Below, in pieces: positions 2,016 through 34,626 of a stretch of DNA of 64,000 nt. The notes under the pieces were generated by a model. It did not search any database, was not told the origin of the DNA, and saw only the letters and a program-made list of their open reading frames with translations. The position numbers and the translations under genes are program-made. Location: positions 23,462,460 through 23,526,459 of the forward strand of contig OX104112.1 of NCBI GenBank assembly GCA_944474755.1, given 5' to 3'. The number at the start of each line of letters is the position of its first letter. Within the stretch, counting starts at the first letter, position 1. Source of the stretch: Limnoperna fortunei (taxonomy: Eukaryota > Mollusca > Bivalvia > Mytilida > Modiolidae).

Positions 2016-3770
2016 AGGACTTTCTGCAAAGGGGAATGCCATTGACATAGTATTGGATTATGACAAGAAAATTAGTAAACCGTTCGGTCTGGCATTTAGT
2101 AGAAATTGTCGCTATATTTGTGTCAAACGGTGATATAAAGTCTGTTTAGTGTTTGCAAGTTTTAGTTATAATAATTGACCAAACAGGAAAAGTGTTAATA
2201 GAATAATATACCATTTTTGAATTTTTTTTCAAATTATGAAATTATGAAATTATGAAATGTAGATCGTTTGAAGTATATAATGATTATATGAGTTTTCTTT
2301 TTTGTATATTTAATAAAAGTCTGTAATGTCGCAAATTCAAGTTGTAAAAACCCACATGGTGAAAAGTGTAATTATTCAATCGAATAATGTAGGTTTTAAG
2401 TCGAATCGATGCGCAGGAAAATATTGAACATGTTGGTTGATTATGGCATGCTGTTCGTGTCTTATGTGTTAGTTTAAACATATTTTATTTGCAAAAAAAT
2501 CAGCAAAATGGATAAGACACAAGTTCAACAAACTTATGAAGTCTTCTCCGACAATAGCAAATATTTTATAATAATATATGTCTTATGTGTACAATAACAG
2601 TACTATCGAATATAGTTACCAGGAATAGATATTAAAGGCCTAGAAATCCTTATCACACCTCTCGCTGAACTGACAAGGATCTCCAGTATTCAGGAAACAA
2701 GATGTTTTTTTTAATGTAAATTTGGAATCAAACGAGAACGCAAGGTTTGGAGCTGGAAAAGACGCATCTTTTCTCACCTGAGGTATAGAGATATCTCGTG
2801 ACTTTCTGTATATGAGATATATCTGTCTTACTGGGTGAGATAAGCTGCACGCGACGGCAAGCACGCAATTATTACCGATAAAACTTCCAAACCTGTGGAA
2901 CAGATTTTTAGTACAAAAAATTAAAAATAAAGTTTTAAATAACTTCAAATGTTACGAAAAATACTCCTTACACCATCTAAATGTTTACATTCCGTTAACA
3001 ACCTGTGAAAATTACAAATTAATAACGAATGGTTATAATAAACCAACTATTTAACATTGTGTCTTCCATATGTTGTACCTGCAATTAAGATTTTATGTGT
3101 GAAAATCCTCGAAAGCAGTTGCTTGTGGAAGTTGAAAAATTAGACTTCGTTATTAACAAATAAAAAAAAATATAGGTCGTGCGGCAAAAATGACCGAAAA
3201 TTTTGGGTGAAAAAACAGCACTGAATGAAACTAACAAACTGTCTACCCCCCTTTTTTAAAAAAAAGCTCTATTTTCCCGGTATAAATGTTGTCCCCCCCC
3301 CCCCCAAATGTAGAAGATTTTCAATCAATTATGTTTCTATTTTTTTAAATTTTGCTATTTTCAGAACCCCAACATCTACTCAGATGCATCCGTGTATTTT
3401 CTTTTGATTACTATCTTGGGGTTCAATAATGTAAACAAATAATTGGTTTATTGTAACCAAATATATTTGCCATTCTGGAGGCTGCCATCTTGAGAAGCAG
3501 GAACTACTTCAGTAACTCTGTATCTCAACAACAAAAAAAAGGAAATAAAAAGGGAGACTACCCATTAATAAAATCGTCTGCTGGAGAAAAACCAATTTGA
3601 AAAAACTTTAAAATAGGAGATAAAGGTGGTGTGGGTTCAAAAGAAAAACATAAAAGGGCAAAATTTAAATACATTAAAACTATGTACACTCTACACCTAT
3701 TTGATGGTAATGTTACATTTTCCGCCGTTGCAAGGCATCAGCTTGGGAAAGGGGTGAATGACGACGAATT
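2016..3770. other. No gene recognised
   Basis: AT-rich; contains a C homopolymer run near 3294-3305 and several A runs. The short open frames here show no family resemblance. Nothing else supported. Confidence 0.45.
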
Positions 3771-4553
3771 CCCTGTCTTACTGTCTGAATTCACCGTTAC
3801 GATTCCTTGTCTTACTGTCTAAAGATACCGTTACGGCTACCCGCCATACTGGCTGATAATACCGTTACGGCTCCCTGTCATATTGTCTTCAGTCACCGTT
3901 ACGACTCCTTTTCTTACTGTCTTAAAAAAACCGTTACGTCTATCCATCATACTGTCTGAAGATACCGTTACGGCTACCTGTCTTACTGGCTGATAATACC
4001 GTTACGGTTACCTGTTTACCTGTCTAAAGATATCGTTACGCTACCTGTCGTACTGTCTGAAGATACCATTAACGATACCTGTCTTACTGCATTGCTGATA
4101 ATACCGTTACGGCAACCTGTCTTACTGTCTGATAATGTCGTTACGGCTACCTGTCTTATTATCTGAACCGTTACGGCTACCTGTCTTATTGTCTGATAAT
4201 ACCGTTACGGCTACCTGTCTTATTGTCTGATAATACCGTTACGGCTGCCTGTCTTATTGTCTGATAATACCGTTACGACTACCTGTCTTATTGTCTGATA
4301 ATACCGTATCGTCTACCTGTCTTATTGTCTGATAATGCCGTAACTCCTACCTGTCTTATTGTCTGATAATACCGTAACGCCTACCTGTCTTATTGTCTGA
4401 TAATACCGTAACGCCTACATGTCTTGATGTCTGATAATACCGTAACTCCTATCTGTCTTATTGTCTGATAATACCCTTACGGCTACCTGTCTTATTGTCC
4501 GATAATACCGTAACGCCTACCAGTCTTATTGTCTGATAATACCGTAACGCCAT
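3771..4553. repeat. 34-bp minisatellite
   Basis: About 22 head-to-tail copies of a unit around 34 bp that contains ACCGTTACGGCTACCTGTCT followed by TATTGTCTGATAAT. Copies at the left edge are more divergent and of uneven length; the centre and right are regular. No coding potential is indicated. Confidence 0.9.
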
Positions 4554-5836
4554 TAATGAGTTAAGACACAAAATTCATAACAAATTAAAGTTGATTAAAC
4601 TGGTAGATAATACAGGTACATATCAACATGATAATCCTTCAGATGCTCCTTAATCCCCACACCAAATGAACATGTTAATTTCTAATTGGAGATTGTATGT
4701 CGGTCAATACTAATCAAAAGCAACTACTACATGTATATTGTCACAACAGATTGAAATTAAAACGTTATAGTCTGTTTCAGAAATTTCGGACTTATATTTC
4801 CTGTTAGCGACGTGAGTTACATTGATTTTAGTCGTACATTTCTCGTCTTTTATAAATTAGAAAGGTTGGAATGTTTGGTATGGCTATTTTTACTAATAGC
4901 ACGTTATGTGTAAATTATACGCAATTCTGACTGTCAGCCTTCTACTTTCTGTTTGCCCGCCATTAACTACAGCAATTCAGCTCTTTTTTATGGTCAGAAC
5001 TGCAAAGAGCCTATTGCTCGTAATGGAGCAAGTCGGTAGTGATTCACACCCTGAGGTTTTATGCACATAATAATTTATTCAACCGTTTCTTTAAATTTCT
5101 ATATACTTTTTATTGTTGTTTTTTTTTAAGTTTGACAACACCTTATGCGTAAAAGAATTGTTTTTTTCCACTTTATTCGTAATCATGGCAATTGTTGTCA
5201 AAGTTTGAATTCCGGAAGTGCATAATTTCTGACTCAATTTGGTAAAAATGTTCATCCTTCAAGTTTTTCCGGATTTTTTGCATTAGCTGGGATCATATTT
5301 TTACCGACTCGATTCTACAGTTCTACACTCCTCAATTTAAATTTTGTCAACAATGCCATGATTACGAAAAAGAGTTAAATTATTTAATGAGACATTGTAG
5401 AAATGTCAGCTGAACGGCGGAGAAAGGAAAAATACAAACTAGACAAAGAGTAATGTTTAATAGCGGAAAATATGTAAATACAAGAGTGTTTTTACTCCTT
5501 TACGAGTAATGGGAACTCTTTGTAGCCCCGTCCTTAAAAAAAACGGGGCTACATTATTGAAGTTAGACCGCCATATACGTACAAAAATTCCGCCAAACAT
5601 TTTTCGGCTTTCGTTAGTGGGCAAAGTTGGACATTCATAAGGTGTTTAATATTCATGGATTGTACGATGTAAACTTTTTGAAGACCTTTCGACTACTACT
5701 TCCTTTTTGCAGAGCATACCTAAAACAACTGTCAAACGTTTCCCGGCTTCCGTAATCTCTTTCAGGGATTATCTGAAAAGCAATATACAATACCCGCTTA
5801 TTGCTTAAAGAAATTAAATATCAGGACGATCATGCT
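4554..5836. other. No gene recognised; one small hairpin
   Basis: No exon or RNA gene recognised. The only structure noticed is a perfect 11-bp inverted repeat (TGTAGCCCCGT at 5521-5531 and its complement at 5543-5553) with an 11-nt loop. Confidence 0.5.
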
Positions 5837-5892
5837 GTAAATTACGACAGCTTATTCGTGCCAAATAGAAAAAAGAAGACAAAAAATAATAA

Positions 5893-6632
5893 ATCGTGGC
5901 CACGATTTAATAATTCGTTCCCACAATTTAAAATTCGTTCCCACGATTTAAAAAATCGTGGCCACGATTTAATAATTCGTTCCCACAATTTAAAAATTCG
6001 TTCCCACGATTTAATAATTCGTTCCCACGATTTAAAAATTCGTTCCCACGATTTAAAAATTCGTTCCCACGATTTAAAAAATCGTGGCCACGATTTAATA
6101 ATTCGTTCCCACAATTTAATAATTCGTTCCCACGATTTAAAAAATCGTGGCCACGCTTTAATAATTCGTTCCCACGATTTAAAAATTCGTTCCCACGATT
6201 TAAAAAATCGTGGCCACGATTTAATAATTCGTTCCCACAATTTAAAAATTCGTTCCCACGATTTAAAAAATCGTGGCAACGATTTAATAATTCGTTCCCA
6301 CAATTTAAAAATTCGTTCCCACGATTTAAAAAATAGTGGCCACGATTTGATAATTCGTTCCCACAATTTAAAAATCCGTTCCCACGATTTAAAAAATCGT
6401 TCCCACAATTTAAAAATTCGTTCCCACGATTTAAAAAATCGTGGCCACGATTTAATAATTCGTTCCCACAATTGAAAAATTCGTTCCCACGATTTAAAAA
6501 ATCGTGGCCACGATTTAATAATTCGTTCCCACAATTTAAAAATCCGTTCCCACGATTTAAAAAATCGTTCCCACAATTTAAAAATTCGTTCCCACAATTT
6601 TATAAATCGTTCCCACAATTTAAAAATCCGTT
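5893..6632. repeat. Left subterminal array, about 35 units of 21 bp
   Basis: Each unit is a 10-bp core of the form CGT-N4-ACG followed by an 11-bp AT spacer. Core variants are CGTGGCCACG (a perfect palindrome) and CGTTCCCACG (CGTGGGAACG on the other strand). Spacers resemble ATTTAATAATT or ATTTAAAAAAT. The array begins 50 bp inside the transposon tip. Because 21 is a multiple of three, all frames stay open and give spurious seven-residue repeat proteins on both strands. The regular 21-bp spacing equals two helical turns; I infer binding sites for the element's transposase. Confidence 0.9.
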
Positions 6633-9600
6633 CAGGATTACGATTTTAAAAATTGATGCAAGACTGCATGGTGTAAATCAGCGAGATACCAAGTTGTTTT
6701 TAGTTAGATTGTTGGCTTAGACTGTAAGTCATAGTAAGTATAATTGTATCAAGAAATAGACTACTTTACTAGTCCTGTGAAATTTACCATTCCAGAATCG
6801 GCAAATCTGACTTTTTTATGCGTAACATATTTGAAAAATTCTTTCGGCACGTGTATAATGGTGTGTTGTATATTGAGAAAAAATATGTGTATTGACTTGT
6901 GTATTGCACCTCAACATGGGTAATTGGGATGGATGGATGGACGGACGGACGGACGGACGGAGGGAGGGAGGGATGGAAAACAAAGTTTCCAAGGGAAAAA
7001 CCATAGTTTCAAAGTTGGCGTTGTTGGCGTTTTTATTATTACATGCAGTGGTAGATGATTTTCCATCACACCTGCACTGACGACTCCTTCGTTGACAACA
7101 TGGCTATTCCGCATCAAATGTTTCTAGGGAGGCTTCAGAAATTGAGACTGTACACATAATATCATAGTCATATTGTGCACTGCTTTGGAAATTTAACTAC
7201 TGTTGCAAAATAAGTGCAATAACAATACTTATACATCAGGGACTTTATATACTAAAGTCCCTGTATATATACATATATTGCTGGCTAACTTAGCAATATA
7301 TATGCTGATGGCACAGCTAACGCTAACCCATGACAGTAGAAATAGTTTTTATTATTGCGTTAATCCGCTAATGAGGGTTGATAGCTTACAGATTCCAACT
7401 TTTTCACTAGTTGTCTGTCAAGACTTTTTTAGCCTATTAAATGTTTAGACATAATATGTAAATAGTATGAAAAATCTGTATATATATTTATGTTATGAAG
7501 AGGATTTTATGTGAATTGATCAATAACATTCATAAGGATTAAACACATGTCTCTGTCCTAAATAAAAGCTTATAGTTTATCTTTACTTGTATTTTTGGGA
7601 AACATTTGCTCTAAATAATTTATCTGAATAAGAAAATAAGTCCTGTTTAATAACTTGGACTTCTTAGGAGTTCATACTGTAAAATGTATTCTTTGAAAGG
7701 AGACCGAACGACCGACTTTTAGGCAGTCAGAGACATATACAACCTGAGATTCGCAACTAGCTCTGAGGCAGTGAACCGGGACCGAAGACTGGAACCGATA
7801 CCGACTTTTACGCAGTGTACATACACCCAAGCTCGTTTCGTTTCCCTTTACTAAGCACCCCTTGATTAGGCCGGGGAGTTATATATTATTTGTCCCAGAT
7901 TAGGTTAAAATATAAATTTACAGTAAGTATAAATTTCCGAAATGCAACAGAATTAAATGTTTACAAATTCTGCTTGTCATTGATGACTTTGATTGACGAA
8001 TTCATCACAAGGAAGCTGATCACAGTACATGTACAATAGGGGAAATTCGCCTATTTGCGGACATCGGGTATTTGCGGACAGAAGAGGAAGTATAATTATT
8101 TTCGTTTGTTTGAATAAAATGTCAATAAATACTGCTACATGCATCTTGGTGTTATTTATTTTTAAATACATAAAATTTTAATATGACAATATTCCTTGCC
8201 TAATTGCGAGCATCGCTTGTTTGATTTTTATGTGTCTTGTTAATAAATACATTTGTACAATAAATTTAAGTAAGGCTATGACTCAGTGTCACAGAAAAGT
8301 AACCTTGTATTAGTCAAGATGTGTAAAATTTAACTTCAGTGGTGTTCTGTGTTTTCATTTTTTACCTTTATTTAATAATAAAAATAGCGATTTTGTCAAA
8401 TTATTTTGTCACGCGTTAAGCCGTTCCTAAGTTTTCGTTTCGTATCTTAAGTGCTTTTTAAAAAATTTCGTTGCGTAATTTTAATAACTCAAGGATGACG
8501 TCATGCGTCATCAAAAGATGGCGTCAGTTTTCCAATAAGCGATTGAACTTAAGGTACAGTTCTTCTTTCTACTTTATTTTACAATTTTTACGGTGAACTT
8601 TGGGTCAATAGAAACATACAATTATGGAATAATCTGCTGAGTAAGAACTTTGTAAAAACAAAATGATCAGAAACTGCAATAGATTCCATTACGTGTTGTA
8701 ACCAGTGGTTACCAAGTTTTGACCATTGACTTTATTTTTTGTTTTTGTTTTTCTTTACTCTTTTTGGACAATATAATTTTTCTTTGTTTTAAAATGCCGT
8801 TTAAGACAAAAACCATTCACAGACTATTTTTATAGTAATGTTATCTACTTTCACTTTCACTTCACTGCCGAACTTCTGGCCGCGGATCACTTCCTGATTA
8901 TCGAAATTTTGTTCGTTCACTCCCTGTCACGTGACTCTTATACGCATGTAATCATCAAGCTCGCATCTGCGATGCTCCCTATTATCGTAAGATAAATTAT
9001 CCTAAAAAGATTAGTTAAAATGCGTCCAAAATCCACCAACAAGTTTTCATAGTGGGAAGTTTGAAAACTGTTTACAGCATACCCTTCAATCTAGCTTCGA
9101 ATCATGACTATATTTATATCATTTAAATACATCGATATCACGTACTTGAAGAACATAGAATAAGAAATGCATTCTGATATTTATTTAATTATCAAATTAT
9201 TGAAGATCAACGTGTTGTTTTTGTGACCAAAGAACTACTGAAAACTGGAAGATAACAACTAATTCATAAAGAAGTTCAGGCGTACCTCCCGAAATAATTT
9301 ACGTCAGACATTTCTCAGGACCTACTCATGGGAATAATATGAAATATGGTACGCAGCATGCATGAGTTGTATCGTATGTGCAACCTACGTGGATGCTGCA
9401 TGTCAACTTCCTGTTTACTGGACTTAAACCTAGTATCTGCATTTCAGAAAATAACATTAAACCCTGTACCAATAAATACATAGGAAGATCTCCATATAAC
9501 TTTTGTCCAATAAGAACTGAACCTGACTTCAATACTAATAACTTGAGAGTTTAGCTGATGATGTAAAAACCTAATAGTAAAAATGTCTTTTCATTTAAAT

Positions 9601-10540
9601 TAATAAGAATTTGAAGCACACTATTTTTGAAAACATAAGAATTATAGTTTTGAAGTGTAGCTTTCTGGTGACATCAGGAACAGTTAAATGTCATTAAATG
9701 CCATTGAAATTTAGCAAAGAAATCTCTTAAACCAATGCAAGGGGCTGTCTTGAACTTGCATTGAGGTGTGAGATTACTCCATGTTAAGGGCCTCACTATG
9801 ACATGGAGATGAATAACAGCAATAAAAGTGCTGTTCATTTGCTTGGATTCAAATTGTATATATGGGGATTTTGTGTCATGAATAAATGCACGATATCCCT
9901 GTCTTCATATGTCATAAAGGAGTCAGTTTGTATGTACGTACGTCCGTACAAATATTCGTCGCACCTTTCTCAGAAACCATAGATCAGATTAGTTTGATAT
10001 TTGGTAGGGTGACTCACCATAATGTACTGTATGTCCTAAGCGATTTTCAGATGGCTTGGATAGCTACTTCCTGTTTGCTGATACTTAGATATTCGCGGTG
10101 TCATTTATGTTCGATGGACACATTCTGTCTTTATTTTAAATAAAAAAAGAAATGCGTTGAATGATACATTGTAAATGTAGTTAAAATTTAATTCTAATGC
10201 TTTTTTTGTAATACCTTTTCTCATTGATGACAAACTAGGTAAAATACACGATCTACCTGCTAAGTTAAGTCGCCATATATGGGAAATTTCATTGTTCGTC
10301 AATACTAATATCTCGAAAAATAAATACAAAGTCTTCAGATTAAAATTTACAAGGATTTGAAGTATACAGTTAGTACAAAAAATTTAGAATTACAGTTTTA
10401 AAGGATGACTTTCTCGCGACATCACAAACATCTTTGTACATAAAAAAGTACATAATTTTTCGCAGACCTTTTTGTGAAGAGCTTGTTTTTGTGAAATTGT
10501 TCAATTAATAATTAGCAACTGTTGTAATTGATTGCATAAG
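6633..10540. other. Transposon interior, no gene recognised; microsatellite and diverged duplication
   Basis: Contains a GGAT/GGAC/GGAG tetranucleotide run at about 6928-6974. A degraded direct duplication of roughly 700-bp spacing (about 9500-9690 against 10280-10430) shares scattered motifs such as CAATACTAATA and GACATCA. A stretch at 9896-10080 has the look of a dispersed repeat. No exon of the HECT gene downstream could be recognised here, although its upstream exons would be expected on this strand. Confidence 0.4.
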
Positions 10541-10663
10541 CATGGGAATAACTGTTAATTATATTTCAAGCTTTGAGGGCGTTGCTAGGAACACTATAAT
10601 TGTGACAGTAAAAACTATGTTTTATACCCTCAAAGCTTGAAATACAATACGGTTATTCCCTAA
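10541..10663. repeat. Foldback hairpin, about 120 bp
   Basis: The arms 10547-10580 and 10625-10660 are inverted copies, including a perfect 18-bp core (TATTTCAAGCTTTGAGGG and its complement) and outer arms GGGAATAAC/GTTATTCCC. The loop is about 44 nt. It could be a small foldback MITE. It sits just upstream of the HECT exon's intron end. No clear target duplication was found. Confidence 0.65.
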
Positions 10664-10741
10664 TGCAGATATGTTGTCAAGTGTTAATGTGTATTTTTGT
10701 GATTCTTATACATTTACAATGTCTAGTTTTCTGTTTTTTAG

Positions 10742-10980
10742 ATGAAGAAGTAGACTGTACCTTCAAGGACATCCTTATATTTATCACTGGCGCCGATCAT
10801 GTTCCTCCAGGAGGATTTCCATCACAAATAAGCATCGATTTTTATAGTGAGAATGGAAGACTTCCATTTTCTTCAACTTGTACTCTTTCCATTTCACTAC
10901 CAAGAGGAATCCAGAATCCAGAATTTACTAGGCTTCTACTGAGAAGCCTGAAAGAGTGTGTTGGATTCGGGAAAATTTAA
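10742..10980 (+). CDS. Last exon of a HECT-domain (E3 ubiquitin ligase-like) protein
   Basis: The exon follows a polypyrimidine tract ending TTTTTTAG (10741) and stops at 10978-10980. Its translation resembles the C lobe of HECT ubiquitin ligases. An upstream strand-turn motif reads DILIFITGADHVPPGG, then LPFSSTCTLSISLPRG with the conserved TC preceding LP (the catalytic cysteine in this family). It ends ECVGFGKI, the usual end of the fold. HECT enzymes form a thioester with ubiquitin through that cysteine. The nearest remembered relatives are the G2E3-like HECT proteins that are often multi-copy in animal genomes. Upstream exons were not found, so this may be a cargo gene whose other exons I cannot see, or a stranded fragment. 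It lies inside the 13.3-kb transposon. The open frame continues upstream of the splice site to an ATG at 10663, but that part looks intronic. Confidence 0.7.
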
Positions 10981-11390
10981 GAACTGACATGCTTAAATTT
11001 ATTTATAGAAGTCATATTTTCATTTGATTTTTGTTGTTATTTGTGACGTTAAATGGATTTTAACAACAGTTTATGAGTCATTGTCAAGCGAAGGAATGAA
11101 AGAATTTTGAACTGTATTTTTCTGAGTTTCTAATGTTACTGTTTGTCAAATAGTTTATTACTGCCAAGTTAATTACATTATTGCCAATTATTTGTTTTAT
11201 GGTTGGTTTTCTTTACTTATCATCCTTCCCATTGCCTATATTGTCTTGTTGAACCATCTTTCAAAATTCATATCAATTCTTGCATGCTGGATTCAACTTG
11301 ACCGAGAGTTATAATTGTTTCATTATGACTTATATCAACAAATTTTTGCAATATTTAGATGATCAAAACAACAATACCATGACATCTTAA

Positions 11391-12480
11391 TTAGCTCACC
11401 TGACTCAAGAGTCATGTGAACTATTGCTATTACTTGGTGCCCGTCTTTTCTTAATGTTTCTTTGAGAATCTTCTTCTCTGAAACCATTTAAGGTATTGTT
11501 TTGAAACTTTGTATACCTTATATTTAGGGTATCTGCTAACAAGTTTGTGAAATGTATGGCTGTCAACTAACCAAGGTGGCCACTGTGAAAATAGAACACA
11601 GGGGTCAAAACATAGTTTTTGGCTCTTAGTTCAAAAATAAAAATAGATGGAGGAAAACCGACATGAACTTCCTTCTTCAGGATCAAAAGCTCTAAAACCT
11701 TTCCATTGAGTAAAAGTTGTATGATGACTCCTTATAGGAGTTGTTTCCCTTTAATGGTAAAATTAATTATTTTCACAGTTTTTCCTTAGTATAAGAGCTA
11801 GAGTAACAAAACTAAAGGAAACAATAAAATTATAGAAATGACAAGATTAGTCTCAAAGTCCAGAAGTGAAAGACAAAACAAAACATTACATACTAGAGAG
11901 TTTGAACATTGCAATGGTCCTGACTTGGTACTAACATTTTGAAAGAAATGGTGAGTTCAACCAGGTTTTATGTCACCAAACCTCCCTCTTACCAAAAACA
12001 CAACAGCTGTTGTGAGACACAATAGGTAAAGTAAAGTGATAATCTTAGGACAGTAGATAGAAAAAAAAATCAACAAAAACAATGGTGAACCATTTTGTCA
12101 GAAGCGTTGATAAGGAAAGAAAAACTTTTTAAGAATCTGAATTAAAAAAAATTCAGTCTCATAAGCGTAGAGAAACAAGTCGGCAATAAAAGTTAGCATT
12201 TCAATATTGTTCAGCTCATTAACATCTACAACAACGATATCTAGGTCTTAATTGTCTGAAGTCCAATTTCGGAGTTATTCCCCTTTAACTGCATTTTTCA
12301 TCAAATTTCAACTTTCTTTGAAAATTTTTATAAGAACCATTGGGGGATTGCTTTGAAACTTTGCAAATATCATCTACAAAATGTCCACTATATAGTTTTT
12401 GCAATGTATGGCCGCTGACAAACCGACATTGCCGCCATAGCTAAAAAAAGAACATATATAGTGGTCAGATTGCAAATTTG
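11391..12480. repeat. Dispersed repeat, copy A (interrupted)
   Basis: Starts TTAGCTCACCTGA and shares blocks with 13880-14360 (for example GGGGTCAAAACATAGTTTT and the later block around GTTCAGCTCATT and TTTGCAAATATCAT). Copy A carries about 370 extra bases (roughly 11820-12190), part of which (11910-11995) recurs inverted at 13305-13395. Non-coding, probably an old element fragment; the family is not identified. Confidence 0.6.
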
Positions 12481-12589
12481 GCAAATTTAACAATATATGT
12501 GACTTTAAAGTGAAAAAAATGTTTTAAAGGTGACATTGTTAGGGCAAGTTAAATGTTAAAGACGAAATAAATTTTCAAAATATCTTCCA

Positions 12590-13190
12590 TTTGAGAGATT
12601 TTTCAACAAGTTGGCATTCCAATGGGCACAAACTGTGCTCCTCTCCTCTCCGACCTGTTTTTATACTCATACGAGACTGGATTTCTTCAGGAACTCGTAA
12701 AAAACAAGAATATTAATGAGGCAAGGTCTTTTAACCTGACTTACAGATACATTGATGATGTCATCTCTGTCAACAACACTTCGTTTGGTAGTTGGATTCC
12801 TTCAATTTATCCACCGGAGTTGGAGATTAAAGAAACCACAGAGTCAGCTTGCTTCACATCATTCTTGGATTTACATCTCGAATTTGACCCGGGTGGTCAT
12901 CTCAGTACAAAAAATTTACGATAAAATAGACGACTTTAATTTTAAAATTATTAATTTTCCTAACCTGAAAAGTAACATACCTACCTAACCTGCATACGGT
13001 GTATATATTTCTCAACTTATTCGGTATGCTAGGGCTTGTACAAGTTTTTCAGTCTTTTTGATCCCACACCACTGTCTTCGTGACCGACTTTTAGACCATG
13101 GTTAAAAAAGAATACGTCTCATACGATCTCTAAAAAAGTTCTTCCTTAGATATACGCCACTGGTTGAAAAATTCAAAATTTTGATGATTA
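12590..13190 (+). pseudogene. Decayed YIDD-type reverse transcriptase fragment (Penelope-like)
   Basis: The palm region is readable: VGIPMGTNCAPLLSDLFLYS (residues before the catalytic core), then RYIDDVISVNN with the YIDD active-site motif, then ELEIKETTESACFTSFLDLHLEF. A one-base frameshift near 12910 moves the frame to KIYDKIDDFNFKIINFPNLK, a TAA at 12986-12988 breaks it, and then PAYGVYISQLIRYARAC follows. The same C-terminal block appears at 50140-50336, so the family is present at least twice in the window. The motif set fits Penelope-like or a related retroelement; the exact class is uncertain. It is dead: one frameshift and at least two stops. Confidence 0.75.
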
Positions 13191-13304
13191 ATTATTGTTT
13201 TAGTTAGTGTTTCACTGGTTATTGTACTGAGATGATCACCTCAATATCTCGATTATGTCTCACGACATTGTTGTGTTTTGTGTTACTACCGGACCCAAGG
13301 ATCG

Positions 13305-13395
13305 CAATGGAAGAGGGAGGTTTGGCGCCGTAGAACCTGGTTTAACCCACCATTTCTTTTGAAATGCCTGTACCAAGTCAGGACCATTGCGGTCT
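13305..13395. repeat. Inverted copy of part of 11910-11995
   Basis: The segment reads AGAGGGAGGTTTGG, then AACCTGGTT, ACCATTTCTTTTGAAATG and GTACCAAGTCAGGACCATTG. The complement of these blocks occurs in the same order at about 11910-11995. It probably belongs to the 3' part of the retroelement fragment immediately upstream. It has no coding potential. Confidence 0.55.
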
Positions 13396-13879
13396 TCATT
13401 TATCTGGTGTATCTTCCTTGTTTTGCTTATTTTCTTGTCGACTTTTGAGATTGATTATCCAAGTTCGGTAATTTTGTTAATACCTTTATTTTCTGTCAAC
13501 TTTTCAAATTGATGGAATTAAGAGAAATTCGGTATATAAGGAAACATTGTTTGCCGAGTTGACTTTGGTGATGATGTTTTTTCTGACCGATCATTTTCAA
13601 GATGGGCGCCATTTCCTACTACATTTTCAAATTTCTCTGATTTCAAAGAAATCAAGAAACATGGTACTATGCTGTAGTTAAAAGAAGGGGTATGGAGTAA
13701 GTACTCTTGACACAACAATCCAATATGTGCTTAATAACCTGTGTTGAATGGCAGTGTTAAAATTTTCGTAGCGGACTACCGTTTTCTTGTCAATTATTTA
13801 TTTATGCTCCAATATCTACATAGAACCTTAATACTGGCTGACTTGAATGATGATGAAAATTAATGCAGGTCATTTTTAT

Positions 13880-14360
13880 TAGCTCACCTGATCCAAAGCC
13901 AAGATGGCTGCCATTGCTAAAAATAAAACAGGGGTCAAAACATAGTTTTGGGCTTATAGTTCAAAAAGTATAACAGATAGAGCAACACCTAGGTTTTCTT
14001 CCTTCTCCACCATCAATATCTATTGAGTTGAAGTTGTACGACAACTCCTTATAAGAGTTATTGCGCTTTAATTGTAAAAATTGATGCTTTCCATAATATA
14101 TAGACAACTATAAGAACTAGAGAATATGTTAGCCTTGCAATTTTGTCTGGGAGTATTATAACTAATATTACTCCCATATTTTGTTCAGCTCATTGAGATC
14201 TCCAAAAATGATTTCAGGGTCAGAATTGTCCTATTTACGATTTTGGGGTTATCCCCCTTATATTTTTTAATCAAATTTTCACCTTTCTTTGAAAATCTCT
14301 CTATAAACCACCGAAAGGATTGCTTTTAAACTTTGCAAATATCATATACCAGACTCCATA
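13880..14360. repeat. Dispersed repeat, copy B
   Basis: Second, uninterrupted copy of the repeat at 11391-12480, starting TTAGCTCACCTGA. It is followed at about 14375-14450 by a block (GTCTCGCC...GGCGAGACATAGGTATTG) of the kind that recurs as a dispersed repeat in mollusc genomes, as far as I remember. The open frame over that block is not a recognised gene. Confidence 0.55.
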
Positions 14361-14539
14361 GCTTGTGGTGAATATGACGATTTTTGTCTCGCCAGCGACG
14401 AAAAGTCGCGTTAGGCGAGACATAGGTATTGCTTACCGCAGCGACGGTGGAGTAAACTTATTTAAGTTGTTAATAACTTTGAGGCTGAGATACCTAGAAA
14501 CTAGTCCTTTGGTTAACAGACCTTTCGTGGTCAAATCTT

Positions 14540-15720
14540 TCGACAGATTACAGGTCATGTGACTGACCTCATTTTCATGATTCAATGGCTTCGTAGAAAT
14601 TGCGTCAAAGTTTCACATTCGAGTCCATCACTCAGCAAGTGTAATACCTAGGGCTTGCGTATTTCATTTATAGATACATCTTAGATGGTACATGCCAAAC
14701 TGACAAATGTCATCAGACTCTGATCTCAATTTCTTGGTTCAGTAACTTTGAAAAAAATGCGTCAAAATTCACATTCGTGTTAATTTCTCAGCAAGTGTAG
14801 TACCTAGGCCATTCATATTTGGTGTGTAGATCATCTTACATGGTACATGCCAAACTGACATATCTCATTTGTCCTTGACCTCAATTTTACGTTTCAATGA
14901 CTTTTGTCTTATTTTTGCATTTTACTTTATTTCTCTGCAAGTGAAGTAGCTAGGCCATTCATATTTGGTTTATAGATACACCCTATAAGTACATACTAAA
15001 CTGACACGAGTCATCTGACCCTGACCTCAATTTTACGCTTCAGTGACTTTTGACTTATTTTTGGATTTAACTTCATTTCTCTGAAAGTAAAGTACCTAGG
15101 CCATTCATATTTGGTATGTAGATACATCTTGGAGATTACACGCCAAACTGACATATGTCATCTGACCTTGACCTCAATTTAACGCTTCAGTGACTTTTAA
15201 CTTATTTTTGCGTTTAACATCATTTCTCTGCAAATGTTAGTAAGACTTCAAGTATTCGGTCTTTAAGAATGTATTGGCAGGTAAGTGGCTTTCCAATACT
15301 TGTCATTTGACCTTGACCTCGATTTCATGGTTCAGTGACTTTCAATAGATTTTCAGTTAAGTGTCTAAATCAACGCCCATTATACCTGCATCCATATTAT
15401 TTTGCTTGAAAAAGTTTTTCCTTGGTTGATAATTGTCAGTCTAATAATTTTCAACTGACCTTGACCTTGATTTTTTGGTCGAGTGATTTTAAGACATTTT
15501 ATAATTGTTATACCTAGACTGATATTTAATCTATAGATGTGTTTTGATGCATACTTTTTAATTCTTCACTGGTCAACTGACATTAACCTAAATTTCACGG
15601 TTGAGTAACTTTCAAGATATCTTTATCATTGTTATTCTTAGACCTTGATATTTGGCCTGTTGATTGATATGTAATTTTTATTTTCTAAGGTTGTTGTCTG
15701 TCCTTGATCTATATTTCATG
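14540..15720. repeat. Diverged tandem modules, about 146 bp
   Basis: The phrase GGCCATTCATATTTGG recurs at 14808, 14953 and 15099, giving a 145-146 bp period. Flanking modules with CTGACCTTGACCTCAATTT and CAGTGACTTTTGACTTATT extend the array to roughly eight decaying copies. The order-preserving decay to the right suggests an old array. Confidence 0.75.
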
Positions 15721-16352
15721 ATTAATAATTTATCTTATTTTAATTGTTGTTAGACTTAAACCCATGTTATTAGGTCTGTGGGTAGGTCTTGGTGAGTAAA
15801 TTCATATTTAACTATCTATTCATGGAAGCACATAGTATTTTGTGATTTCACCTTTAGCAAGATGTAATTATCAGTCTTATATGTGCCATTAGTATGTCCA
15901 CATGCTTATTCAATCAAAGCAGCTTATTCAGGCAAGACATCTTCCGTGTTTCCACACTCGTTCTGATAGGACTTTGAGTATGACGCAAATTGATTTGGGA
16001 CAGGGATTTGTTGCTCTCAGGTTGTTGTCATCACTATAACAAAATATACAAAAGACATCACGTGCTTGTTGGAAATTTTTCTAATAAAATTAAAAATTCG
16101 AAAATTGATAAGAAAGGCAGTATCTTCCTTCATAGGACTTCAGAAACCACCAAATTGACATCCGCCAACACTACAGTGTGTAGCTACAAGTATGAACTGC
16201 TTACCCTTCAGGAGCTTCCGAGTTCACTTTTTTTAATATAGAGTTCGTGTTGTTGGCTTTGTTCATTGTTTTTGTGGGTGTTGATTTGTTAATGTTGGGG
16301 TATTTTTTTTGTCTTTCTTGTTTATGGACTCCGCTATTTGATTGCCGCTTGC
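15721..16352. other. No gene recognised
   Basis: An 83-codon open frame at 15990-16241 shows no family resemblance. T-rich sequence after 16240 is similar in composition to the tail after the retroelement fragment at 50340, but no firm assignment is possible. Confidence 0.35.
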
Positions 16353-16596
16353 AACACGCGTATCGAGTTTTTACTACTCGCGATATATAGTTTTCTTATT
16401 ACTCGACATTGTTATTCCAACAAAGGTGACGCGTATCAAGTCAAATAATTTTTCATATTACCAATTGGGTACGTTGGACCCCTTGTTTAATTTTTTAATT
16501 GTAACGAAAAATCCTTAGCAGTATTAAGAAAATTTATTGGACCTGATCCGCGTATGCATACGAGTAGTAAAAATTATTGCACTCGATACGCGTGTT
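16353..16596. mobile_element. 244-bp inverted-repeat element
   Basis: Perfect 15-bp inverted ends: AACACGCGTATCGAG (16353-16367) and its complement (16582-16596). The similarity extends inward as TTTTTACTACTCG/CGAGTAGTAAAAA. An internal near-copy of the end (ACGCGTATCAAG) is at 16429-16440. No convincing target duplication was found, so it could be a small MITE or a foldback. Confidence 0.55.
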
Positions 16597-16834
16597 CCTA
16601 GGGGTGAACATGTATTTGCTTCCTTAAGCATGGATTTATTGCGATTTAGTTTTTTAACTCTTTTCCGAAGGATGGCGAGCTAAAATTAATTCAAAATAAC
16701 AATTGTACGAATGGTTACGAGCTTTAACAAAAAAGCTTCCACTGTGCATGTACTTGTATATTTTTATTATAACATATATCAGAATAAAGAAGTTAATTTG
16801 ATGAAATTCCAATCAGACAAGCTCAAGAAGGTAT

Positions 16835-18628
16835 TTATTCCGAGTATAGCTGCTGTAAAATGGAGTTTCTAAGGTTAAGGTACAATTCCACTGCCTCTTC
16901 AATGTTATTTGGTCTTCTATACTGGTTTTCAGTCATGATCAAATCAATTAATTCAGCCACATCGGGATCACATATGTTAAGTCCATTGATGTCAACTTCT
17001 TCTCGGCATGATATAAAGTCATCAACATGATGGTCATCGACATCAAATACATGGTCCCTAGCTTGATAGAGTTCAGGAGTGTGATATAGAAGGTAAGGTT
17101 TTCCTCTCACACCAGAATAGTTCTTCTTATGCTGCAGTGCGTGGGCATGCCATACAGATTTTACCTTGTCAAGATCTCTCTAAAATGTAATAAAGTACTC
17201 AAATGTCAATTAGAACCATAATGAAGTAATTCTATAATACATTCCTAAAAAATGTTGAAGAGAGGCACAGTATTTTAATCTATTACATCTGTATTAGAAA
17301 TATTATAAAAAATATATATTATTTAAAATATACCCGAAAGTTAATGTGTAAAAATCCAGTGTGACCAAACAGATAAACTGTGACACAATGGTGCAACAGT
17401 AAGATAATCATCTCAGTACAATTTAACAGTGTTTATCAGAAAAGCGATCCCAAACTTCAAACTAAAATGTAAAGAAAAAAATGTATTCTTACAAGCGACG
17501 AAATATATATATATATGTAAGTAATCGATCAGATGTAGAGTTGTAAGAGCACTGGGTTTTAAATTGCGAGGTTTGACACCTCTGTGGTTTCAAGTATTTC
17601 ATGTGTCAAGGTATCAACTAATAGTTCTCTGTAGGTTTCACAGATTTTCCAGCTTGGAATTTTGGGCTTTCCTAGCACACACATTCTGGCGACCGTTTGA
17701 AGCCTATGAAATAAAAAAAAAGTGGGTGTTAAACTCTCCCTCAGACACAGACCGGAAATTGAAGACTGTCGAGTAGAACCATATTTTGACTTACCTGGAT
17801 AAGACCACAAAAGCAAAAACGCACAAGTTCTTTATCAAGCCAATCTCCAGAGAAGGAATCAAGATCTTCCTTTATCATTTGAAATAGGTCTATCCAGAAC
17901 TGCAGACACTCTTTCCGCAGTAGTCCCCAGAACCATTCAATTTGTTGATTGTGATTACTACTTCCATACACAAAGCTTTTTTCGCCTGCATTTATATCGT
18001 TGTGGTTCCTTCTAAAAAAAATTTGAAGTTGTTCAATAACTGTATTTTCTGTGCCTTTATCTGCCCTTATTTTTGCAGGACAACCACCAACATCTTCGAC
18101 AGCTGCTAGATAATAATTAGCAATTACCAACGGGTCATTGTTTGTGCGCCCTGCTTTAAGCCATAGTAAATGACGGGAATATCCGTCTATACATCCGTGA
18201 ATAGCTATGCCAAATCTCTTTAACTTGTCGTTACCGTCGACATGCCATACAAAATTCGGACCCTTGTTTCCATATATCCTACGTCTCAATCTGTTTTTTT
18301 TTCGTAAGCAAACTCCATCATGGTCTTGCAAAAGCAATAGTTGGCGGATTTCATTTTGCGATACTCTGTAACCTGCAAGAATAGCTTGCCAGTACATCCA
18401 TCTGTATCCATGTAATTGTCCACAACTTTCGAGCATTTTCTCCACAAAAAGTGCAACTTCTAAGATATCTGACTTATTTTTACGACGGAAAAGTCCCAAA
18501 TCTGCACATTTCCTCTTTGCTGTGCGTTCACTTAAGACTATTTTATGTTTATGTGCCAATACCATAATAATTTTTGGAAAGCTTAATCCCATTTCAAAAT
18601 AGTGCCGAATCAATTCATCTCTTTCCAT
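16835..18628 (-). CDS. DDE transposase/integrase, two exons, apparently intact
   Basis: Exon 1 is 18628-17795 and exon 2 is 17179-16835. The 615-nt intron has a GTAAGT donor and a TTTTAG acceptor, both phase 0, giving about 392 residues and no internal stop. The N-terminus (residues 1-50) looks like a helix-turn-helix (ERTAKRKCADLGLFRRKN). HGYRWM at 73-78 recalls IS3-type transposases. The RNase H-like core has D131 (WHVDG), followed by CIDGYSRHLLWL, D190 (IRADKGTEN) and E231 (QQIEWFWG), with DDE spacing 58 and 40. The last exon, beginning RDLDKVKSVWHAHA, completes the tail usual for this family. It is expected to bind the transposon ends and catalyse cut-and-paste. The ATG lies 58 bp from the right 21-bp array, so its promoter would be in or beside that array. 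The open frame at 17559-17816 lies in the intron. The superfamily name IS3EU is from memory and is the least certain part. Confidence 0.85.
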
Positions 18629-18689
18629 TTCAACGCCTTGTCACGTCCAAACTACGGTTATATCGGTAAAAATCTCAAAAATCGCACAA

Positions 18690-19105
18690 TTTTTAAATCG
18701 TGGGAACGAATTTTTAAATTGTGGGAACGAATTATTAAATCGTGGGAACGAATTATTAAATCGTGGGAACGAATTATTAAATCGTGGCCACGATTTTTTA
18801 AATCGTGGGAACGAATTTTTAAATTGTGGGAACGAATTTTTAAATTGTGGGAACGAATTATTAAATCGTGGCCACGATTTTTTAAATCGTGGGAACGAAT
18901 TTTTAAATTGTGGGAACGAATTTTTAAATTGTGGGAACGAATTATTAAATCGTGGCCACGATTTTTTAAATCGTGGGAACGAATTTTTAAATTGTGGGAA
19001 CGAATTATTAAATCGTGGCCACGATTTTTTAAATCGTGGGAACGAATTTTTAAATTGTGGGAACGAATTATTAAATCGTGGCCACGATTTATTAAATCGT
19101 GGGAA
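18690..19105. repeat. Right subterminal array, about 20 units of 21 bp
   Basis: Same repeat as 5893-6632 in the opposite orientation: cores CGTGGGAACG, CGTGGCCACG and a diverged form (TTGTGGGAACG), each followed by an 11-bp spacer such as AATTTTTAAAT or AATTATTAAAT. The palindromic core occurs in a regular alternation with the others. The array ends about 50 bp short of the transposon tip. The inverted placement makes the effective inverted repeat several hundred base pairs long. All the reading frames through it are artefacts of the 21-bp period. Confidence 0.9.
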
Positions 19106-19165
19106 CGATTTATTATTTTTTGCCTTCTTTTTTCTATTTGGCACGAATAAGCTGTCGTAGTAAAT

Positions 19166-19800
19166 AGAATGTGATTTGACCTCAAAAAGAAAAACAACTT
19201 ATAGCCCAGACAGGAATATGTAATGCTAAAAGGAAATAAGTCTATGTTGAAGTATGAGGTCAAATGTCACCAACACAAATATCAAACATGTTAAATTCCA
19301 ATGATCTGTCCACGTGCCCAAATATCAAACGCCTGCCTCAAAAGACAAAACTTTAAACTCCCGGACACTCATTTTGTTATTCAATATGCAAAAATGTGAT
19401 CGGACTTAAGGTCAACGGTCAAAAACTATGGTACGGAAAATAGAAAGGAAACTGACCGAACAACAAGAGCCGAAAGTCAATATAGGCAAAAATATATTAA
19501 GCCCACATGCCAAATATCAAATAGCCTACCTGACGATAAAAAAGTTATAGCTCGGACACGATTTGTTGGGGACAGGCTGACAGACACAACAATAAGGAGA
19601 CCCTCTTTAACCTCTTTCACCTTCCGCCATAAGATTAATAGGTTATTTCATACGTTTTGGGGAAAATTCGGTTGATCTTTCACGAGTGATAGAAATTTTA
19701 TGTCTTTTCGCAAGTGGAGCGCAGCGCATGAAAGTACCTATTTCTTCCGTAAACCAACAACTTTCACATCGCTATAACCTATAGACTCTCCATTGTTTTA
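19166..19800. other. Flank of the transposon, probable dispersed repeat, no gene
   Basis: Repeated phrases of the type CCAAATATCAAA (19318, 19509) and GGACAC suggest an old dispersed repeat with internal duplication. No exon was recognised. Confidence 0.4.
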
Positions 19801-29939: not shown

Positions 29940-31938
29940 CATTAATAAAGGTTATATTAAATAGAGCTTATTTTCCAAAAGAGTAGAAAAAAGCTAATGT
30001 TACACCGGTTTTCAAAAGTATTTATCCCAGTGAAATTAAAAACTACAGACCAATATCCCTTTTATGTATAATGGCCAAGTGTTTCGAAAGATGTGTTGAC
30101 AAACAAGTACATAATTATTTAATATAATATAGAATTATTACTCCTAATCAATCCGGGTTTACTAAAGGAGACTCGGCTTTAAACCAACTTGTTAATATTT
30201 CTAATGATTTTGGGAGGGCCCTAGACAGTGGCAAAGAAATAAGGGTGGTATTCTGTGATATAAGCAAAGCCTTTGATCAAGTTTGGCATAAAGGCTTGCT
30301 TTTTAAATCGTAAAATTATGGAATTTCAGGCAACTTACTAAACTGGTTCACAAACTACTTAAATGCTAGATATCAACGCGTTGTGTCAAATGGCGGTTGC
30401 TCTGCATAGAAGCCAATTAAGGCAGGGGTTCCCCAAGGGTCTATATTAGGTCCACTCTTGTTGCTTTTATTTATAAACGACATAGTCACTGAGATCGGTG
30501 CCAGCATCAAACTATTTGCTGATGATACAAGTTTATATTTAATTGTCGATACCCCTGAAAATGCTGCAAGATTACTAAACAGTGACCTTGACAAAATACA
30601 CGAATGGTCAAATAAGTGTCTGGTCAACTTCAATCCACAGAAGACGGAAAAATTAATACTTTCTCGTAAGCCAGTGAAACCCGTACATCCTACTCTGTTT
30701 ATGAATGATCATGACATACAAGAGGCCCATTGTCATAAACAATTGGGTATTTACTTTTCCAAAGATGGTATGTTGTACGATCACATTGATTATATAGTAA
30801 AAAGGCTTATACTAGAATAAATATTCTGCGCAAATTTCGACTAGTCTTGATGGGCACGTTTTAGAAAAAATGTACTTTTCTTTTATAAGACCTTTATTAG
30901 AATTTGGGGATGTAATATGGGGTTTAGTCAATAAAATAAAAAATGTTTAAATAGAAGCTATGAGAATTGAAACGGGGGGTAATAAATTAACTTCTATTGA
31001 AAATATATATAAAGAAACGGGATGGAAATCGCTTTCAGACAGGCGAGAGACCCACAAACTTATATTATTTTACAAAATGATTAACTTCGAAACCCCAGAT
31101 TATTTGCGGGAATTGGTACGTTCATCAATTGAAAATACACATACACATTATACCCGTCAATCACAAAATATTATTGAGGTCCGTACAAGAACAAATTTGT
31201 ACTCGGAATATTTTCTGCCTTCGACCGTAAAATTATGGAAAAGATACGACGGCTTATTCGTGCCAAACAACAAAAAGAAAAAAAATATTTATTTCGTTTG
31301 TACGATTTATTAATCCGTTTGTACGGTTTATTAAATCGTTAGTACGCTTTATTAAATCGTTTGTACGATTTATTAATCCGTTTGTACGGTTTATTAAATC
31401 GTTTGTACGGTTTATTAAATCGTTTGTACGGTTTATTAAATAGTTTGTACCTGTTTATTAAATCGTTTGTTCGATTTATTAATCCGTTTGTACGGTTTAT
31501 TAAATCGTTTGTACGGTTTATTAAATCGTTTGTACGATTTATTAAATCGTTTGTACGGTTTATTAAATCGTTTGTGCGGTTTATTAAATCGTTTGTACGG
31601 TTTATTAAATCGTTTGTACAAACGGATTAATAAATCGTACAAACGAAATAAATATTTTTTTTCTTTTTGTTGTTTAGCGCGAATAAGCCGTCGTATAAAG
31701 ATTACCCCTGCATACTCGAAATTATCTTCAAAAAACGAATAAGTCAACATGTCCAGATTATTACTACGTAGGAACCCGACTGGGACAGGTATTACACACC
31801 AGATTGCGACTGGGAAGTAGCTCGCTAAATGAACAGCTCTACGTACGAAATCTGGTGGACTCTCCTAACTGCACATGCGGACAAGTTGAAACCTCTTCAC
31901 ATTTACTCTTAAATTGTACAAAATATGATACCACGAGG
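29940..31938 (+). pseudogene. Decayed LINE (non-LTR) reverse transcriptase, split by a 451-bp transposon
   Basis: Reading across frames gives KNYRPISLL, PNQSGFTKGDSALNQLV, VVFCDISKAFDQVWHKGLL, AGVPQGSILGPLLLLLFIND, the active site KLFADDTSLY (30510-30540), and EWSNKCLVNFNPQKTE. The downstream thumb region IRPLLEFGDVIW and SLSDRRETHKLILFYKMINF follow. The C-terminal zinc-knuckle-like CTCGQVETSSHLLLNC lies after the insertion. Stops at 29984, 30125, 30311 and 30407 and frameshifts near 30820 and 30950 show it is dead. The transposon at 31245-31695 interrupts it in the thumb-to-tail region, and the frame resumes exactly after one copy of the 6-bp duplication. The clade (L2/CR1/Jockey-like) was not resolved; no endonuclease domain is visible upstream, so the copy is 5'-truncated. 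Confidence 0.85.
31245..31695. mobile_element. 451-bp non-autonomous relative of the 13.3-kb transposon
   Basis: The ends are inverted repeats of about 80 bp with two mismatches, starting TACGACGGCTTATTCG, clearly related to the 13.3-kb element's TACGACAGCTTATTCG. The flanks are AAAAGA (31239-31244) and TAAAGA (31696-31701), a 6-bp duplication with one mismatch. The interior is a 21-bp repeat array with core CGT-TTGT-ACG and spacer GTTTATTAAAT, the same plan as in the 13.3-kb element but with different core bases. The frames over it are artefacts. It has no gene, so it would need a transposase supplied in trans. Confidence 0.85.
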
Positions 31939-33261: not shown

Positions 33262-34626
33262 TGGTAAGTGATGGTGGTGGACATGTACGTACATGTTATA
33301 GTGGTGGACATGTACGTAATGGTCGTGGACATGTACGTAATGGCGGTGGACATGTACGTAATGGTGGTGGACATGTACGTAATGGTGGTGGACATGTACT
33401 TAATGGTTGTGGACATGTACGTAATGGTGGTGGACATGTACGTAATGGTGGTGGACATGTACGTAATGGTGGTGGACATGTACGTAATGGTGGTGGACAC
33501 TGTACGTAATGGTCGTGGACATGTACGTAATGGTGGTGGACATGTACGTTATGGTGGTGGACATGTACGTAATGGTGGTGGACATGTACGTAATGGTGGT
33601 GGACATGAACGTAATGGCGGTGGATATGTACGTAATGGTGGTGGACATGTACGTAATGGTGGTGGACATGTACGTAAATGTGGTGGACATGTACGTAATG
33701 GTGGTGGACATGTACGTAATGGTGGTGGACATGTACGTAATGGTGGTGGACATGCACGTTATGGTGGTGGACATGTACGTAAATGTGGTGGACATGTACG
33801 TTATGGTGGTGGACATGTTCGTAATGGTAGTGGACATGTACGTAATGGTGGTGGACATGTACGTAATGGTGGTGGACATGTACGTAATGGTGGTGGACAT
33901 GTACGTAATGGTGGTGGACATGCACGTTATGGTGGTGGACATGTACGTAAATGTGGTGGACATATACGTAATGGTGGTGGACATGTATGTAATGGTGGTG
34001 GACATGTACGTAATGGTTGTGGACATGTACGTAATGGTGGTGGACATGTACGTGATGGTGGTGGACATTTACGTAAATGTGGTGGACATGTACGTAATGG
34101 TGGTGGACATGTACGTAATGGTGATGGACATGTACGTAATGGTTGTGGACATGTACGTAATGGTGTTGGGCATGTACGTAAATGTGGTGGACATGTACGT
34201 AATGGTGGTGGACATGTACGTAATGGTGGTGGACATGTACGTAAATGTGGTGGACATGTACGTTATGGTGGTGGACATGTACGTAATGCTGGTGGACATA
34301 TACGTAATGGTGGTGGACATGTACGTAATGGTGGTGGACATGTACGTAATGGTTGTGGACATGTACGTAATGGTTGTGGACATGTACTTAATGGTGGTGG
34401 ACATGTACGTAATGGTGGTGGACATGTACGTAATGGTGGTGGAGATGTACGTAATGGTGGTGGACATGTACGTAATGGTGGTGGACATGTACGTAATGGT
34501 GGTGGACATTTACGTAATGGTGGTGGACATGTACGTAATGGTGGTGGACATGTACGTAATGGTGGTGGACATTTACGTAATGGTGGTGGACATGTACGTA
34601 ATGGTGGTGGACATGTACGTAATGGT
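33262..34626. repeat. 21-bp minisatellite, about 65 copies
   Basis: The unit is GGACATGTACGTAAT followed by GGTGGT, with point variants (AAATGT for AATGGT, TTACGT, GCACGT). Variant units recur in clusters, which suggests block duplication. The period is a multiple of three and lacks stops, so frames of up to 459 codons run through the array on both strands; these are not proteins. No inverted ends like those of the 21-bp transposon arrays flank it. Confidence 0.92.

Follow-up and report, generated by a model that had tools for sequence, protein, structure and literature searches.

In a 64,000-nucleotide stretch of the genome of the bivalve Limnoperna fortunei (contig OX104112.1, positions 23,462,460 to 23,526,459 of the forward strand; hereafter the window), positions 5843-19159 are a transposon insertion, a 13.3-kb copy that we call E1. 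We consider it probable that E1 is an internally deleted transposon of the IS3EU type, whose ends, carrying arrays of 21-bp tandem repeats, are predicted docking platforms for its transposase, and that a HECT gene, of which E1 keeps the last exon, is maintained by the element as a second gene.

The insertion and its genome-wide relatives

A first-pass annotation of the window had taken two distant minisatellites for the two ends of one element, and genome-wide pairs of ends, target duplications and empty sites all agree with it. When the ends of E1 were measured again, the inverted termini, read inward from 5843 (plus strand) and 19159 (minus strand), agreed at 54 of 55 bases, Tandem Repeats Finder placed inward-pointing 21-bp arrays of 35 and 20.4 copies next to them, and the hexamer GTAAAT stood directly outside both (Table 1), which reproduces the one-mismatch terminus, the array orientation and the flanking hexamer first described.

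The insertion itself was established by empty sites, a comparison that the annotation had proposed and that we ran within the host assembly (1.335 Gb, 285 contigs). Ten joined flank pairs were searched against the assembly, the best 40 of 7507 candidates being scored, and among these seven paralogous sites, all on the same chromosome and 94-98% identical, spanned the E1 junction, while E7 gave two matches, one full-length and one partial, and E9 gave 32. The five sites that were fetched (three for E1, one for E7 and one for E9) have no gap within 26 bases of the junction and carry one hexamer each, a single GTAAAT in those of E1; over the same 26 bases the E1 and E9 sites are also free of mismatches, and the E7 site has a few. 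Gap-free empty sites with one hexamer demonstrate directly that everything between the flanks was inserted. E1 landed in a repeat (5718-5842 and 19166-19290), of which the same chromosome holds at least seven further copies within about 5 Mb.

The first 20 terminal bases, with up to two mismatches allowed, occur 979 times in the genome (481 forward, 498 reverse), and the same pattern read backwards, as a control, has no genome match. Forty-four ends have no mismatch, and 24 of them make 12 inverted pairs (E1 to E11 and a pair on C14) with lengths from 219 bp to 58,851 bp. The termini are therefore not confined to single-ended copies next to different flanks, the pattern that the annotation had set against its own reading, though the remaining 20 of the 44 exact ends have no zero-mismatch partner, a count that covers exact partners; at the C15 locus no reverse end with up to three mismatches was found within the fetched 6.9 kb. 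All 12 pairs have TACGAC..GTCGTA termini, and in 11 of the 12 they are flanked by an exact 6-bp duplication (GTAAAT, ATTGAG, CATAAC, ACATTT, GTTGAT, GTTGAG, GTCAGG, CCGTAT, ATTCAC, GTCTAG, ACTAGG), for which the binomial chance probability is about 3e-37. Exact duplications also flank two non-autonomous copies consisting of ends only, E9 (914 bp) and E11 (219 bp, about six units), which suggests that the ends and their arrays hold everything needed in cis. The element likely moves by cut-and-paste.

The interior is homologous across E1 to E7 and E10, with long matches at about 96-99.6% identity, and all eight copies encode the transposase; random cargo capture was rejected as the source of the interior because of this homology. 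Relative to E5, about 5.6 kb with upstream HECT-gene exons (E5 bases 3531-9106) is absent from E1 at 9280/9281, and the longer arrangement is visible in both E5 and E10. E1, which had been called complete, is so with respect to its ends and not with respect to its interior. The largest pair, E10 (C13:21895353-21954203, 58,851 bp, with an exact duplication), was rejected as a 59-kb mobile unit: compared with E5 it has gained about 30 kb through retrotransposon-like insertions, of about 24 kb and about 6 kb, with frames that are gag-like and reverse-transcriptase-like by eye and without a family search. About 28 kb of element sequence is left when they are subtracted, including an 8-kb part (37.3-45.3 kb, with upstream HECT-gene exons) that has no counterpart in E5 or E3 and that we infer to belong to the element.

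Some further features of the copies were observed. Several head-to-tail retrotransposon-like copies, with long gag-like and reverse-transcriptase-like frames as judged by eye, are nested inside E10 (L052-L057). E6 (L047, C6:18731931-18739846) has transposase sequence at both ends, inverted, an arrangement that copying of one end onto the other would give. The interior shared between copies contains a reverse-transcriptase-like fragment (12622-12924 in E1), for which the longer E3 frame matched RVT_1 at 0.0032, below the Pfam cut-off. In viral contigs 24 stretches fitted a pattern, and none encoded relatives.

The transposase and the HECT gene

The E1 transposase is encoded in two exons separated by a GT..AG intron and comprises 392 codons with no internal stop; its start codon, an ATG at 18628, is 59 bp inward of the right array (58 bp as first described). 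The Pfam search that had been proposed for it returned PF24764 (Pfam rva_4) at 7e-27, and the NCBIfam matches, to IS3 (2.3e-4) and IS481 (1.8e-3), are weak and both far below cut-off. The catalytic residues are D131, D190 and E231, with 40 residues separating the last two. There is no HHCC zinc motif before the core, as only C41, C69 and C107 precede residue 118, where the Pfam core starts, and they form no CxxC; a Pfam scan of the exon 1 frame (E 0.1) gave PF24764, a sub-cut-off rve and two other sub-threshold matches, with no THAP domain among them. A PDB search by sequence gave no match. An AlphaFold2 model built on 49 aligned sequences (mean predicted local distance difference test score, pLDDT, 90; predicted template modelling score, pTM, 0.59) has two three-helix groups ahead of the catalytic core (helices 3-12, 17-28, 34-43 and 55-67, 75-84, 91-101), which in our reading of the helix pattern would be two helix-turn-helix domains. 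Foldseek ranked IstA (8b4h, 4e-7) and TnsB of a CRISPR-associated transposon (CAST; 7svw, 1.6e-5) first, followed by retroviral integrases, Tn7 TnsB and MuA, with template modelling scores by query length that are low, about 0.2-0.36. The nearest named relatives of the transposase are from the bivalves Saccostrea, Tegillarca and Mytilus. A further frame of the same type, 35% identical, lies about 41 kb upstream of the window start (G000:C2:23421050-23422195), with no array in the 1 kb upstream of it.

In the accessible parts of two reports, IS3EU elements are defined by TAY ends and 6-bp duplications (PMC10045372, PMC12730594), and fungal members have TAYGG..CCRTA ends and extra genes (PMC12730594). 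The assignment of E1 to IS3EU, which had been suggested on the strength of such termini and duplications, matches this definition as far as those texts give it, and by the transposase, the TA..TA ends and the 6-bp duplications, all read from sequence, membership in the superfamily is well supported.

Besides the transposase the element carries HECT-gene sequence. Positions 10741-10980 hold the final exon of a G2E3-like HECT gene with several exons, which converges with the transposase gene and is fuller in other copies: an equivalent last exon is present in E2, E3, E5, E6 and E10, two upstream HECT exons are found in E3, and SAM-like and linker exons, identified by eye, in E10. What the annotation listed as a HECT exon within a cargo-like interior is the remnant of this fuller gene. 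A search with the exons strung together gave four hits, including two Mya arenaria proteins, one of them named G2E3-like. The host genome contains 38 HECT matches, 14 in the family of E1 and the rest at 18 distinct loci, which we compared with the 84 listed transposases outside the family. Seven of the 18 have one of these transposases at a distance of no more than 13 kb, where 0.03 would be expected, and in all seven the two genes are convergent. At six of the linked loci the transposase is 73-79% identical to that of E1 and at one it is 50% identical; one HECT locus (C1:41695487) is enclosed by inverted ends at C1:41687898 and 41701443. The ratio of nonsynonymous to synonymous divergence (dN/dS) of the HECT exon was 0.13-0.18 in six comparisons of 73-88 codons between the E1 family and four loci, three linked (C9:49657057, C1:41695487, C10:66032384/66034496) and one with no listed transposase nearby (C2:61589947/61592259), at dS values of 1.35-2.27 that are near saturation. 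An STCT motif, which we take to hold the presumed catalytic Cys of HECT, is kept in the four last-exon sequences read. Together, the conserved Cys motif, the recurrent linkage and the low dN/dS suggest that the HECT gene is a maintained second gene of the element, and it likely serves the element.

That the HECT gene is instead passive cargo with no role for the element would fit the loss of most of the gene from several copies, E1 included, and the fact that no examined copy has been shown to hold every exon. Against it stand the recurrence of the same convergent layout beside the transposases of the seven linked loci and the low dN/dS between the exons, and we hold this explanation to be rather unlikely.

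The 21-bp arrays as predicted docking platforms

Thirty ends were fetched (L009-L038, the first 30 of the 44 zero-mismatch ends, some being the two ends of one element), and 28 of them have an array of 21-bp period that begins 42-65 bp inside; unit cores are spaced by a multiple of 21 in 466 of 489 cases. Large copies have about 15-50 units per end, and in the E1 family two kinds of unit, the perfectly palindromic 18-bp AAATCGTGGCCACGATTT and the TCGTTCCCAC type, alternate in a loose 63-bp order.

Arrays of this kind also accompany more distant transposases. From 109 listed matches (1085 first-look candidates, 105 scored) we sampled 16 transposase loci, 79 to 35% identical to that of E1 and some closely related to each other, and fetched 1 kb upstream of each. 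An array of about 21 bp was found within this distance at 12 of the 16, namely all those with at least 41% identity, with a unit length of 21 or alternating 20/21, 20/22 or 21/22; in five of the 12 upstream stretches (L059, L064, L067, L068, L074) an outer terminus starting TACG is apparently visible by eye. The E1 family and the 12 arrayed loci make up 10 unit types, which diverge between lineages but are interrelated, AAATCGTGGCCACGA being common to the E1 family and the 57% loci, CGTAATAACG to three unit types and TTGTGCGCAC to two. Thirteen of 15 arrays, representing 8 of the 10 types, contain an inverted core, YGT-N4-ACR, at 0.49-0.98 copies per unit, as against at most five copies per array in 500 shuffles, a count that is a description and not an independent test because the motif was picked after viewing the same arrays. 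The 4-bp spacer within the core varies by lineage (GGCC or TCCC, TTGT, AATA or GCGC). In an arm-based test of inverted symmetry, p was below 0.05 in six of the 10 unit types, and the combined Fisher value of 2e-8 is overstated because the types share cores and are not independent.

The best explanation of the arrays is that they would be multi-site docking platforms for the element's own transposase; we chose multi-site docking, with sites two helical turns apart, on the strength of the IstA and TnsB fold matches, the Tn7 end repeats and the Galileo sites. Each 21-bp unit would be a bipartite site for the two N-terminal helical domains. Since 21 bp are two turns of B-DNA, successive sites would face the same side of the helix and many transposases could line up, which may give end recognition and synapsis higher affinity and specificity, and the 4-bp spacer with its flanks would give each lineage private ends. 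The right array, being directly upstream of the transposase start codon, would act also as an operator and could couple end occupancy to transposase dose, and the HECT ligase would possibly act on host restriction factors or on transposase turnover. In its widest form we offer the proposal tentatively, as one that may well turn out otherwise: a clade with private, helically phased operator arrays, with dozens of 21-bp YGT-N4-ACR sites per end whose spacer and flanks change in step with the DNA-binding domains while the two-turn register is kept, and with a HECT ligase controlling the stability of the transposase or of a host restriction factor.

Several results weigh against this reading or parts of it. 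Among the pairs of ends, E8 (1401 bp) has no matching duplication, and for seven of the ten elements queried there was no empty site among the best 40 of 7507 matches. The transposase of E1, first described as having no lesions, does have an intact reading frame, but it carries Gln at residue 229, two positions ahead of the catalytic Glu, where at least 90% of aligned rows have Arg. Among the eight elements with a transposase, five have at least one copy of it broken by a frameshift or a stop: in E5 exon 1 contains a stop and the start of exon 2 is missing, E3, E4 and E7 are frameshifted, and of the two transposase copies in E6 one has an open exon 1 and the other a frameshift. Exon 1 is open and exon 2 is free of stops in the alignment in E1, E2 and E10, barring an in-frame 9-bp length difference in exon 2. 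At four of the 16 sampled loci (35-40% identical) there is no array in the 1 kb upstream, and at one of them also none in 2.5 kb; these loci may start downstream of an intron. The YGT-N4-ACR core is absent from the L065 and L068 arrays, unit symmetry is not significant alone in four of the 10 types (B, L063, L065, L068), and in a cruder symmetry test p was below 0.05 in only six of 15 arrays, a weak result. Within the window a 65-copy 21-bp minisatellite of different sequence (33264-34626) has no clear inverted flanking ends, so the 21-bp period alone is not diagnostic. Finally, 11 of the 18 HECT loci are not near any listed transposase, among the matches listed.

The arrays could instead be passive, minisatellites grown by slippage or gene conversion beside short functional termini and with no role in transposition. 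Array length does range from about 6 to 50 units between copies, E2 and E3 have right arrays that differ in unit order and number although their interiors are 99.6% identical, and the window is rich in unrelated minisatellites, one of them also of 21 bp. Passive growth sits poorly, however, with arrays of about 21 bp, differing in their units, at 12 of 16 transposase loci whose identity goes as low as 41%, and with the recurrence of the inverted core in eight of 10 unit types; moreover, the window's other minisatellites mostly have different periods (28, 34, 43, 50 and 52, for example), and in the 12 other window arrays tested no inverted flanking ends stand out. We judge passive arrays to be quite improbable. 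Still weaker is the explanation that the inverted arrays pair as single strands into a hairpin, as proposed for Foldback-type elements, with no protein binding to each unit. The arrays are inverted, their unit types are common to both ends and E11 is nearly all inverted repeat, but within one element the two arrays are unlike in the number and order of their units and so would pair poorly along their length, and pairing does not need a fixed two-turn period, which makes this explanation very improbable. That E1 is two separate small elements 13 kb apart with a chance match of GTAAAT, as the array-only copies E9 and E11 with the same ends might suggest, is practically out of the question, being refuted by the empty sites that join the outer flanks at base resolution and opposed by the duplications in 11 of 12 pairs and the homologous interiors of E1 to E7 and E10.

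Table 1. Features of E1 and of a related element in the window (window coordinates)
Feature	Positions	Strand	Basis or remark
Left target site duplication GTAAAT	5837..5842	.	Single copy in three fetched empty sites
Left terminal inverted repeat, starts TACGACAGCTTATTCGTGCC	5843..5897	+	End comparison, genome-wide pattern search
Left array, 35 units x 21 bp, loose 63-bp order: palindromic AAATCGTGGCCACGATTT and two TCGTTCCCAC-type	5900..6633	+	
Internal deletion junction; E5 bases 3531-9106 missing	9280..9281	.	Comparison with E5
Last exon of G2E3-like HECT gene (HECT C-lobe, Cys of LPFSSTCTLSISLP)	10741..10980	+	Pfam HECT 9.8e-10
Internal 146-bp tandem repeat	14783..15233	.	Within interior common to other copies
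Transposase exon 2, including stop	16835..17179	-	
615-nt GT..AG intron	17180..17794	-	Splicing predicted
Transposase exon 1: two modelled helical domains and DDE core D131, D190, E231	17795..18628	-	
Right array, 20 units x 21 bp	18688..19115	-	Inverted relative to left array
Right terminal inverted repeat	19105..19159	-	Inner end overlaps first array unit
Right target site duplication GTAAAT	19160..19165	.	
Second, non-autonomous group member: TACGACGGC inverted ends around 21-bp array only	31245..31695	+	451 bp, 12 kb from E1

Among 15 window arrays tested for inverted flanking ends, these are clear, besides the 5900/18688 pair of E1, for the array at 31294-31619 only, which belongs to the second group member of Table 1. 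Its flanks, AAAAGA and TAAAGA, agree at five of six positions, and its terminus and unit recur upstream of the L059 transposase, which is 79% identical to that of E1. The other window minisatellites were rejected as ends of the group of E1, since none of these 12 has inverted flanking ends that stand out; three of them score 1 to 4 points above the highest of 30 shuffles. A lone TACGACAGCTTA lies at 26349-26360 on the minus strand, where the match to the terminus ends there and no array is reported.

Relation to known systems

What is new here is the end architecture and the second gene. A limited survey of the literature, with Repbase entries outside it, found no description of an architecture of about 21-bp arrays for IS3EU, and no published description of a HECT gene in IS3EU was found in a search that did not cover transposons under other names; an earlier description of either is possible. 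The results link dispersed minisatellites to specific elements that encode a transposase and whose insertion is proven, and they offer a testable reason for the period of these minisatellites, and the matched pairs of transposase and array at the sampled loci are a natural experiment on the coevolution of a transposase and its binding sites. If the proposal of private operator arrays is true, many dispersed 21-bp minisatellites of this genome would be transposase landing arrays and not junk satellites. Should the HECT gene prove functional, this would be, to our knowledge, the first E3 ligase known as a conserved gene of a DDE transposon.

With IS3EU elements, as the accessible text of two reports presents them, E1 shares TA..TA (TAY) termini, 6-bp duplications, long inverted repeats and an IS3/IS481-like DDE transposase (PMC10045372, PMC12730594). 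The subterminal arrays of about 21 bp and the HECT ligase gene, in contrast, are features of the E1 family that go unmentioned in the same portions of those reports (PMC10045372, PMC12730594); the extra genes of the fungal members (TET/JBP, alpha-kinase) stand in a fixed order, according to the part consulted (PMC12730594).

For the ends, comparable systems lie outside the superfamily. Galileo and the Foldback-like elements of the P superfamily have, in the available portion of the source, very long inverted ends with internal tandem repeats, in which several binding sites for the THAP-bearing transposase were found in Galileo (PMC3688188); they differ in superfamily and transposase, exon 1 of E1 having no THAP match. 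Tn7, from what the consulted part of its source gives, has 22-bp repeats at its ends, with three TnsB sites on the left and four on the right (PMC8649781), and thus resembles E1 in having repeated sites of about 22 bp at both ends, where E1 has arrays of about 21 bp that are predicted sites, and in the related fold of TnsB. It differs in having three to four sites per end, against the 15-50 or so units per end of the large copies here, and its machinery is bacterial and multi-protein (PMC8649781). Tandem-repeat miniature inverted-repeat transposable elements (MITEs) and Tetris have inverted ends around a tandem-repeat core, as does the element at 31245-31695, and so do the MITEs of Donax as cited in the accessible text of PMC8268682; unlike these, the elements described here share their ends with relatives that encode a transposase, and their period persists from lineage to lineage. 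The coral CMITEs, piggyBac-like in the text available, were dropped as a comparable system. For the second gene, the VTD deubiquitinases of Helitrons likewise place a ubiquitin-pathway enzyme among the genes of a transposon, in the part of the report that was available, but there it is a deubiquitinase in a rolling-circle element, whereas here it would be a HECT ligase in a DDE element (PMC9741609).

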